A DNA stretch of 16,855 bases. It comes from Eubacterium sp. (GTDB lineage Bacteria; Bacillota; Clostridia; Oscillospirales; Acutalibacteraceae). The stretch is taken from NCBI GenBank assembly GCA_029052085.1, contig JAIDJS010000161.1, forward strand, positions 1-16,855, read 5' to 3'. Below the pieces are notes generated by a model. That model was not told the DNA's origin. It did no database searches and worked only from the letters and a program-made list of their open reading frames with translations. Positions 1,591 to 4,093 of the stretch are shown here, piece after piece. A program made the position numbers and the translations under genes. Positions within the stretch are counted from its first letter, which is position 1. The number at the start of each line of letters is the position of its first letter.

Positions 1591-2091
1591 ATGCTCAAAT
1601 TTAACTGGAATTTTCTTTTTATGCTTATGAACCTTGTGATTTTTTATCTGCTTATGAGAAGGTTTTTGTTTAAGCCTATTATGAAGGTTATGGACAAGCG
1701 TAAAGAGATGATTGACAATCAGTTCAGCGATGCCGAAGAAGCGAACAATCAGGCATTAAAGCTGAAAGAAGAATATGAAGAAAAAATTGAAAATATCAAT
1801 GCAGAATCCGAGCAGCTTATCAGCGAGGCAAAGCAGTCTGCAAGAGCTGAATATGAAAAGATTATTGACAGAGCGGAGGCAGATGCCGAAAGCATAAAGG
1901 CTGTTGCTAAGAAGCAGTCTGATGAAGCGTGTGAAAGTCAGCTCAGAAAAGCAAAGGAAGATATTGCAAATCTTGCTATGGAAGCTGCCGAAAAGGTTTT
2001 GGGCAAAAGCGTTTCTGCTGAAACAGACAGTGATATTTTTAATGAATTTTTAAATGAGGGCAGTGAAGAAAATGAATCTCAAAATAGATGA
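1591..2091 (+). CDS. atpF: ATP synthase F0 subunit b
   Basis: Subunit b is the peripheral stalk that holds F1 against rotation. The 166-residue protein has one N-terminal membrane helix (residues about 5-24), then the basic stretch LFKPIMKVMDKRKEMI and a long charged, alanine/glutamate/lysine-rich helix expected to dimerise as a coiled coil. The C-terminus (AAEKVLGKSV) is the part that normally contacts delta. Length is normal for the family. An AAAGGA ribosome site lies ten bases upstream. The last 20 bases overlap the start of the next gene in another frame, which suggests translational coupling between b and its partner delta. Confidence 0.93.
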   Translation: MLKFNWNFLFMLMNLVIFYLLMRRFLFKPIMKVMDKRKEMIDNQFSDAEEANNQALKLKEEYEEKIENINAESEQLISEAKQSARAEYEKIIDRAEADAESIKAVAKKQSDEACESQLRKAKEDIANLAMEAAEKVLGKSVSAETDSDIFNEFLNEGSEENESQNR

Positions 2092-4093
2092 TTATGTTAA
2101 TACACTGCTTTCAAATGAAATCAGTGTATCAGAGCTTGATAATGCAAAGAAAATTCTTTCTGCATCGGATGAATTGATGCAGATTTTGAATAGCCCGTCT
2201 GTTTCAAAGGATGAAAAGAAAAAAGTTGTTGATGAAATTTTTTCCTTTTCCGTTAAATCCGTTATTCTTCAGCTTGCTGAGGAATGCAAGGCCGATGAAT
2301 TAGGCAGTATTATTGATGCTTATTCGGCAGAATTGGATAAGAAAAACCGGGTTGCAAGGGCAACACTTATCTGTGTAACAGAGCCGGACGAAAAACAGCT
2401 GAAGGGCATTGAGGAATTTGTCTGCAAGGAAGAAAATGCAGGTTCTGCAAAAATTGAAATGGTTAAGGACGACAGCCTTATAGGCGGCTTTATTATCCGT
2501 ATCGGCAATAAGCAGTATGACAGAAGTCTTAAATCAAAAATCAGCAGCATTAAAGAAAAAATCGTTAATGATGCAAGAAAATCCTCTTCTGTAGACACAG
2601 ACGGAATCATCTCTATTCTCAGAAGTGAGATTAAGGATTTTGATTTTGAAACAAACAGCGAAGAGGTTGGCACGGTTATCAGAGTTGGTGACGGTATTGC
2701 AACAATCCATGGCCTTGATCATGTAATGTACGGTGAAATCGTTGTTTTTGATTGCGGCATCAAGGGTATGGTTCAGGATATCAAGCGTGCAACCGTCGGC
2801 TGTATCATTTTTGGTAATGATAATGAAATTCACGAGGGATCCAAGGTCCGCAGAACACATAAAAATGCAGGTGTTCCTGTTGGCGAAGCCTTTATCGGAA
2901 GAATCGTAAACGCACTGGGTGAAGCAATAGACGGAAAAGGCGATATTGTTTCCGATGAATTCAGACTTATTGAAAATCCGGCACCTTCTATTGTTGACAG
3001 AAAATCTGTTTCCGAATCTCTTGAAACGGGAATTCTTGCAATAGATTCCATGTTCCCGATAGGAAGAGGACAGAGAGAACTTATTATAGGCGACCGTCAA
3101 ACGGGTAAAACGTCTATTGCCATTGATACAATTATTAATCAGAAGGGTAAGGATTGTATTTGTATTTATAATGCAATCGGGCAGAAGGCATCAACCGTAG
3201 CGAAGCTGGTTGGAACTCTTGAGAAAAACGGGGCAATGGAATATACGATTATTGTTTGCTCAACTGCTTCTGATTCGGCATCATTACAATATATATCTCC
3301 ATATTCGGCAACAGCTATTGCGGAGTATTTTATGCACAAGGGCAAGGACTGCCTTATTATTTATGATGATTTAAGCAAGCATGCTGTAGCTTACCGCGCA
3401 CTTTCTCTTTTGCTGGAGCGTTCTCCCGGACGAGAAGCTTATCCCGGAGATGTTTTCTATCTTCATTCAAGACTGTTGGAGCGTTCTTCCCGCCTTTCCG
3501 ATGAACTTGGCGGAGGTTCCATAACGGCTCTTCCGATTATAGAAACACAGGCAGGCGATGTATCTGCTTATATTCCAACGAATGTTATTTCAATTACGGA
3601 CGGACAGATTTTCCTTGAAAGCGATTTGTTCTTCAGCGGTCAGCGTCCTGCAGTTAATGTTGGTTTGTCCGTATCCCGTGTTGGCGGCGCAGCACAGACA
3701 AAGGCTATGAAAAAAGCAGCCGGCTCGCTTCGAGTGGATCTTGCTCAGTATCGTGAAATGGAAGTGTTTACGCAGTTTTCATCTGACCTTGATGAAGAAA
3801 CGAAGGCCGGTCTTACTTATGGTAAGGGCCTTATGGAGCTTTTAAAGCAGCCGCTTACGCATCCGCTTTCACTTGCGCAGCAGGTTATTACGCTTGTTGC
3901 TGCAATCGGCAAAAAGTTTGTTGATGTTCCTGTCAGTGAAATTAAAAAGTATCAGGGCGAAATGCTCGAATATTTTGAAAATTCATATTTTGAAATTATC
4001 AGCGAGATTCATGATAAAAAGGTTCTTACCGATGAGCTTAAGGATAAAATTCTTAAGGCTGTTGATGATTTCAGAAAGGTAAAAAATGGCTAA
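2072..4093 (+). CDS. Fused ATP synthase F1 delta-alpha subunit
   Basis: One 673-residue reading frame contains two subunits that are normally separate. Residues 1 to about 168 are a complete delta/OSCP protein: it starts MNLKIDDYVNTLL and ends with DSLIGGFIIRIGNKQYDRSL and a closing helix. From about residue 174 an essentially full-length alpha subunit follows: TDGIISILRSEI, Walker A GDRQTGKT (340-347), Walker B IIYDD (Asp432-433), and SVSRVGGAAQ with the arginine finger Arg536. Between them there is no stop, no Shine-Dalgarno site and no in-frame ATG, GTG or TTG; the nearest in-frame ATG lies inside delta (near 2461), and the next is at MYGEIV, well inside alpha. The start at 2072 is chosen because GAGGG (2056-2060) precedes it; the ATG at 2054 has no such site. 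It overlaps atpF by 20 bp and atpG by 8 bp. Confidence 0.93.
   Translation: MNLKIDDYVNTLLSNEISVSELDNAKKILSASDELMQILNSPSVSKDEKKKVVDEIFSFSVKSVILQLAEECKADELGSIIDAYSAELDKKNRVARATLICVTEPDEKQLKGIEEFVCKEENAGSAKIEMVKDDSLIGGFIIRIGNKQYDRSLKSKISSIKEKIVNDARKSSSVDTDGIISILRSEIKDFDFETNSEEVGTVIRVGDGIATIHGLDHVMYGEIVVFDCGIKGMVQDIKRATVGCIIFGNDNEIHEGSKVRRTHKNAGVPVGEAFIGRIVNALGEAIDGKGDIVSDEFRLIENPAPSIVDRKSVSESLETGILAIDSMFPIGRGQRELIIGDRQTGKTSIAIDTIINQKGKDCICIYNAIGQKASTVAKLVGTLEKNGAMEYTIIVCSTASDSASLQYISPYSATAIAEYFMHKGKDCLIIYDDLSKHAVAYRALSLLLERSPGREAYPGDVFYLHSRLLERSSRLSDELGGGSITALPIIETQAGDVSAYIPTNVISITDGQIFLESDLFFSGQRPAVNVGLSVSRVGGAAQTKAMKKAAGSLRVDLAQYREMEVFTQFSSDLDEETKAGLTYGKGLMELLKQPLTHPLSLAQQVITLVAAIGKKFVDVPVSEIKKYQGEMLEYFENSYFEIISEIHDKKVLTDELKDKILKAVDDFRKVKNG

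Follow-up and report, generated by a model that had tools for sequence, protein, structure and literature searches.

Delta and alpha in one open reading frame

How is an F-type ATP synthase put together when delta, present once in ordinary enzymes, is encoded as part of alpha, which is present three times? This question is raised by a DNA stretch of 16,855 nucleotides from Eubacterium sp. (assembly GCA_029052085.1, contig JAIDJS010000161.1; the whole stretch is called the window here). A single frame on its forward strand, positions 2072–4093 (673 codons and a stop), encodes a complete delta subunit (OSCP), a linker of about ten residues and a complete alpha subunit. The frame is uninterrupted from 2054 up to the stop, and gives a protein of 673 amino acids when started at ATG 2072. 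A sequence-only reading of the window had described this arrangement, and the open frame, Pfam and a structural model all agreed with it. With Pfam, OSCP was matched at residues 20–163 (85.7 bits, cut-off 22.3), followed by ATP-synt_ab_N (196–262), ATP-synt_ab (320–535) and ATP-synt_ab_C (542–667), all above the cut-off.

The AlphaFold2 model of the fusion, built on 69 sequences, had a mean predicted local distance difference test score (pLDDT) of 74.7 and a predicted template modelling score of 0.64. It contained a delta N-domain of six helices (the first at residues 3–14, the last at 74–92), a delta C-domain at 94–170 and the alpha N-terminal helix at 176–188. The linker was modelled with low confidence (pLDDT below 50 at 167–169 and 173–196). 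Hence the delta of the fusion is complete; its first helix is present but short and divergent, which is why the OSCP match starts only at profile position 24. The delta C-domain is the part that holds the pair of b subunits in known enzymes.

When the window was compared with a related locus (L193), the nonsynonymous and synonymous substitution rates (dN and dS) were 0.096 and 0.495 for the delta N-domain, and 0.067 and 0.78 for the C-domain. Both delta domains are under purifying selection, and therefore translation passes through the join. Among 27 full fusions of the genus, the mean pairwise identity was 0.40 for the delta N-domain, 0.59 for the C-domain and 0.89 for the nucleotide domain of alpha. 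The corresponding conservation of separate deltas was 0.262 (N) and 0.277 (C); these values come from 30 sequences whose divergence far exceeds that within the genus, with one b subunit (L224) included in error. We are as good as certain that the fusion is real.

Start signals at the join

No in-frame ATG, GTG or TTG was found among the 46 codons scanned around the join of the window, as the sequence-only reading had noticed. In related loci we looked at the beginning of alpha for a start codon accompanied by a ribosome site matched over 5 bases or more. Such a signal was present in 25 of 33 rows with separate genes (these include L011 and L048, both from genome G029, as well as L038, whose separate delta has only the C-domain, and L224, an alpha with a remnant), vs 2 of the 27 full fusions of the genus. 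Its frequency was 2/34 for full fusions overall (one of these rows, L129, being a tandem C-domain fusion), 5/65 for fusions of the delta C-domain only and 2/15 for the b-delta-alpha triple fusions described below. A match of 4 bases was found in 32 of the 33 separate rows. Production of free alpha by internal initiation is unlikely, since the 5-base signal is rare in the fusions and the window has no start codon at this point.

Occurrence in the genus and beyond

The best homologue, P0002, was of equal length and 98% identical, and represents 69 sequences clustered together in public data. Public genomes yielded six named relatives, every one from a metagenome assembly; they include Eubacterium sp., Ruminococcaceae bacterium UBA3323 and two ‘Lapin’ Clostridia; from the isolate names, most appear to be gut-derived.

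Sixty related genomes were examined, of which 36 belong to the same genus. An OSCP match was obtained in 32 of these and in none of the other four (G010, G015, G018 and G019). Delta and alpha were fused in 30 of the 32. The full delta was fused in 24 (23 frames of 659–682 amino acids, and G011, whose frame runs into a contig end), and the delta C-domain alone, with the N-domain absent, in six (five frames of 588–613 amino acids, and G003 at a contig end). Separate delta and alpha genes were found only in G026 and G029. The junction is shared by a clade, then, and the sequence-only reading, which would have been given up had all close relatives kept separate genes, was also right that a simple sequencing indel does not account for the join: the public cluster and the fused genus genomes both speak for this.

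Stop-free fusions were also present in at least 70 genomes of an order sample (394 searched), at least 36 of a class sample (391) and at least 20 of a phylum sample (398), that is, in at least 119 distinct genomes over the three samples, with the window's own genome in each; these counts are lower bounds, taken by hand from the best rows. A scan of viral contigs (viral_contigs) found no relative. P0005, P0009 and P0026, candidate fusions by their length, were rejected, as each is a single chain in which the alpha sequence is repeated.

A single gene each of the alpha type, the beta type and OSCP is present in the genome of the window (1.92 Mb, 91% complete, 367 contigs); no second alpha or delta gene was found in this assembly.

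Loss of the delta N-domain

In the alpha tree of the genus, C-domain-only fusions appeared at three places among the full fusions. L039 and L040 grouped with L012 (support 100/99), L032 and L033 fell inside a 26-row clade (95/96), and L035 grouped with L023 (92/96, not starred). A single clade of the C-domain-only fusions of the genus was rejected by the approximately unbiased (AU) test (p-AU 6e-5), and so was a tree that excluded the two separate members from the fused clade, within which they nest (97/98 with L030; p-AU 0.0057); both values are optimistic, as the groups were named after the tree had been seen. We read the first result as loss of the delta N-domain after fusion in three lineages of the genus, and take it that this docking domain is dispensable once delta is tethered to alpha. 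In the two separate members, the fusion may have come apart again, or delta may have been obtained from another source. G003 (L031), cut at a contig end, was excluded from the trees, and a larger alpha tree was made without L116 (a 747-residue triple-fusion frame) and L216, in which the script did not match its motif.

The alpha N-terminal helix ordinarily contacts the delta N-domain. In a large clade of C-domain-only fusions this helix was rewritten: the pattern [IVLM][IVL][PS]L[LIM] occurred in 27 of the 31 rows read, vs 2 of 32 rows with separate genes and 1 of 31 full fusions. The helix was read where the script matched, i.e., in 31 of 37, 32 of 33 and 31 of 33 rows, respectively.

Two loci of other forms were also observed. 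At L038:5508–5726 (G052), a free delta of 72 amino acids, consisting of the C-domain only, adjoins a separate alpha that nests among the C-domain-only fusions in the alpha tree. In L224 (G671), alpha is preceded by no more than a short remnant, and immediately upstream no delta was found; this may be a case of delta loss within the C-domain-only clade.

Fusions that include b, and other joined subunits

A b-like membrane segment precedes delta-alpha in one clade (15 rows, support 100). These b-delta-alpha fusions belong to other families of the order; in the window, b is a separate gene. In all three proteins tested with Pfam (L036, L037 and L113), a single chain contained ATP-synt_B (29.2–32.5 bits, cut-off 28), the C-domain of OSCP and alpha. 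These loci also have a separate b gene upstream. The triple fusion was the only atpA above the cut-off in 13 of 16 such genomes; the extra alpha is an ordinary one in G127 and G408, and a C-domain-only fusion in G414. In a protein search with a triple fusion as query, 118 of the 120 matches listed were 724–789 amino acids long, and 67 of the 120 carried a precomputed ATP-synt_B (counted by hand). The order b, delta C-domain, alpha N-terminus is the physical path from the membrane to the top of F1. To judge from these sequences, an F1 with the triple fusion would carry three extra membrane anchors, unless the protein is cut.

In the triple fusions L036, L037, L111–L113, L115 and L117–L125, the b-like segment is followed by a conserved stretch (consensus LTPGDMxYL..HDVLYVTLTSA) ahead of the delta C-domain. 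In L129 (G134), tandem delta C-domains, each followed by a helix like that of the alpha N-terminus, precede a single alpha. In L127 (G236), the operon that encodes a full delta-alpha fusion also has two adjacent frames for c, of 78 and 80 codons when measured between stops.

Gamma and beta, rotor and stator, were joined in one stop-free frame of 795–819 amino acids in L139, L149, L163, L167 and L204. This frame holds the only gamma gene in G378, G112, G166 and G551; G673 has a separate gamma too. An engineered gamma-beta fusion is described as rotating at about wild-type speed (PMC4052266). All five natural frames have an in-frame ATG or GTG with a ribosome-site match of 5–6 bases, 7–11 bases upstream of beta. 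Free beta may also be made from these frames; a set of one gamma-beta and two beta would be consistent with this. Among the 120 matches listed in a protein search, 56 had both domains (counted by hand).

Comparison with engineered and known enzymes

When the model of the window protein was searched against the PDB set (350,542 chains) with Foldseek, the top match was 9jc1_I. This chain comes from an engineered FoF1 (deltaDeltaN-alpha), for which Ueno et al. 2025 removed the delta N-domain of the Bacillus PS3 enzyme and fused the C-domain to alpha (PMC12229609; PDB 9jc1). It could be aligned with the window protein straight across the join, the natural linker being two residues longer. In both proteins a short linker joins the delta C-domain to the alpha N-terminus; unlike the engineered protein, which lacks the N-domain, the window protein keeps a six-helix N-domain. 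According to the same report, the engineered enzyme has up to three peripheral stalks and three a subunits, an H+/ATP ratio of 5.8 vs 3.0, and an equilibrium proton-motive force of 68 vs 133 mV; by cryo-EM, 0, 1, 2 and 3 stalks were seen in 15, 51, 26 and 8% (PMC12229609). It is argued there that the axial delta N-domain restricts ordinary enzymes to one stalk. Natural fusions without the N-domain are also named in that paper (Acidaminococcus fermentans and UniProt G4Q3K6 and A0A1I2C5T3), and a multi-stalk enzyme is expected in these cases (PMC12229609). By their description, these share with the window the natural fusion of delta to alpha in the operon, but the N-domain is missing there and present in the window; C-domain-only forms do exist in the window's genus. 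The sequence-only reading had cited mycobacterial b-delta as the fusion known to it, and in this respect it is superseded by these published delta-alpha cases.

A b-delta fusion is reported for Gordonia and some mycobacteria, along with Clostridia operons without delta (PMC5709465); a delta-alpha fusion may be hidden in some of these operons. In the b-delta protein, too, the peripheral-stalk delta is joined to a neighbouring subunit, but the partner is b and not alpha, and the copy number of delta stays at one. The b-delta-alpha proteins described above combine the two kinds of fusion. N-ATPases are described as having no delta and the gene order beta-epsilon-...-a-c-b-alpha-gamma (PMC5709465), and the window differs on both counts. 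The ordinary ATP synthase of Bacillus PS3 (PDB 6n2y) has the same eight subunit sequences in the order a-c-b-delta-alpha-gamma-beta-epsilon; in the window, delta and alpha form one chain, in the ratio 1:1 instead of 1:3.

In the open-access literature (preprints and subscription papers aside), PMC12229609 was the only paper found on multi-stalk ATP synthases or delta-alpha fusion, and none was found on a full-delta-alpha or b-delta-alpha fusion. New here are the full-delta form, the three lineages in which fusion was followed by loss of the N-domain, the b-delta-alpha triple fusion and the wide occurrence of such proteins.

Number of delta domains and of peripheral stalks

In ordinary enzymes the delta N-domain sits on the threefold axis, and it is thought to limit the number of stalks to one. 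As far as the assembly shows, the fused protein is the cell's only alpha and its only delta, which would place three delta domains on each F1, one at each alpha N-terminus, where the C-terminus of delta makes physical sense. That there are three per F1 in the cell is probable, because no other alpha or delta gene is present in the assembly; gene content and the missing start signal are observed, and the absence of cutting is presumed. The sequence-only reading had arrived at the same number, and this stands as the default, valid only if the protein stays uncut; its interpretation as a whole is partly supported.

We propose that each delta C-domain could take its own b pair. By analogy with the engineered enzyme, peripheral stalks could then number two or even three, each with an a subunit. 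More a subunits per c-ring would mean more protons per turn, a higher H+/ATP ratio and ATP synthesis at low proton-motive force. The window enzyme would be an intermediate, in which one N-domain may hold the threefold axis with the others displaced; relatives that lack the N-domain or have gained a b segment would represent the symmetric end state. Following the engineered analogue, more than one stalk is rather likely in the C-domain-only and triple-fusion relatives, and possible, with some doubt, in the window's own enzyme. The explanation as a whole, i.e., three delta domains per F1, room for more than one stalk and the window form as intermediate, is one we hold at slightly less than even confidence.

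Several observations weigh against it. The window protein retains its N-domain, and an enzyme with this domain is confined to a single stalk under the published rule (PMC12229609), yet there would be three N-domains for one axial site. The N-domain must still do something, because it remains under purifying selection. Stalk number and stoichiometry of the natural members are read from sequence, and the fusion could be cut. About 9% of the genome may be missing from the assembly. In-frame starts with a 4-base ribosome match were found at the alpha start in 6/27 full fusions of the genus, 10/34 full fusions overall, 21/65 C-domain-only and 5/15 triple fusions; these weak starts share no position among relatives (126 frames, several loci of one genome among them).

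A single stalk may persist in spite of three delta domains: one N-domain would be axial, its C-domain would hold the only b pair, two deltas would be idle, and the fusion would merely secure assembly or stability. This is a reading of some weight that we think somewhat less likely than not. It agrees with the constraint on the N-domain, with its retention in 24 of 32 genus genomes and with the argued role of that domain in restricting stalks to one (PMC12229609). As delta is reported normally to bind only after the alpha3beta3 head has formed (PMC8904574), a tether could simply aid assembly. But each complex would then carry two N-domains to no purpose, three lineages of the genus shed this domain once they had the fusion, and the triple fusions put a membrane segment on every alpha, which one stalk does not explain. 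The textbook stoichiometry of one delta and three alpha would be restored if the fusion were cut after synthesis or alpha were also started internally. The weak in-frame starts of some fusions point this way, as do the internal starts seemingly used in the group's five gamma-beta frames, with their 5–6-base ribosome match. We consider it unlikely: the window has no start codon at the join, the 5-base signal is found in 2 of 27 genus fusions against 25 of 33 separate rows, an internal start would still leave delta attached to one alpha, and we know of no cleavage motif, although no motif search was made. The fragmented source assembly (367 contigs) could suggest that two neighbouring genes were joined by an assembly or sequencing artefact. 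This was rejected and can be dismissed almost entirely, as the fusion recurs in genus genomes and in independent public sequences and is under constraint across the join.

In this bacterium and many of its relatives, what holds the outer stalk is part of all three ring proteins and no longer a lone separate component, so that one motor may carry several stalks, like the recently engineered enzyme that makes ATP from a weaker membrane voltage (PMC12229609). Multi-stalk F-type ATP synthases might even be common as a natural class among Clostridia and related bacteria. Delta-alpha fusion would be a second way, beside c-ring size, to set H+/ATP; the axial N-domain would have been shed repeatedly, and one clade would have added a b segment that ties each alpha to the membrane by its own covalent stalk. 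We advance this wider view tentatively and expect it to be wrong somewhat more readily than right. The window's genus offers separate, full-delta-fused and N-domain-less-fused forms side by side, with b-delta-alpha in other families of the order. With these forms it becomes testable whether nature sets the proton cost of making ATP through the number of stalks, and whether it is the delta N-domain that acts as gatekeeper.

Operon and genome context

All eight F-type subunit sequences (a, b, c, alpha, beta, gamma, delta, epsilon) were above the Pfam cut-off in the window. The gene order is a-c-b-[delta-alpha]-gamma-beta-epsilon, the remaining subunits being ordinary separate genes (Table 1).

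Table 1. Positions of the ATP synthase genes and of the parts of the delta-alpha fusion in the window
Feature	Position	Strand	Basis
atpB, a subunit	537..1283	+	Pfam ATP-synt_A, 139.8 bits; better ribosome site at ATG 555
atpE, c subunit	1320..1538	+	Pfam ATP-synt_C
atpF, b subunit, 166 aa	1591..2091	+	Pfam ATP-synt_B, 89 bits; 3′ end overlaps fusion start
Fused atpH-atpA, delta-alpha protein, 673 aa	2072..4093	+	Open frame, Pfam; same fusion in relatives
Delta N-domain, residues 1–92, six predicted helices	2072..2347	+	OSCP match 20–163, model
Delta C-domain, residues 93–165	2348..2566	+	Pfam, model; aligned to PDB 9jc1_I across the join
Linker, about residues 166–175, no in-frame start codon	2567..2596	+	Codon scan, model
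Alpha N-terminal helix region, residues 176–195	2597..2656	+	Model helix 176–188
Alpha core, residues 196–673 and stop	2657..4093	+	Three alpha domains above cut-off
atpG, gamma subunit	4086..4967	+	Pfam ATP-synt, 321.2 bits
atpD, beta subunit	4997..6382	+	Pfam
atpC, epsilon subunit	6396..6809	+	Pfam

The genome also contains an RnfC gene (530 bits, well above the cut-off). A ferredoxin-driven, low-force ion pump is therefore likely in this organism, and an enzyme of high H+/ATP would suit the small force from a pump of the Rnf type.

Downstream of the operon, at 6865–8136 (+), a HAD-type hydrolase is joined to a 2-thiouracil desulfurase domain; several loci of the genus also have a similar gene after the operon (e.g., L032, L033 and L048). 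At 11779–14223 (+) the window encodes a family 3 glycosidase in which the C-terminal domain stands ahead of the N-terminal domain.
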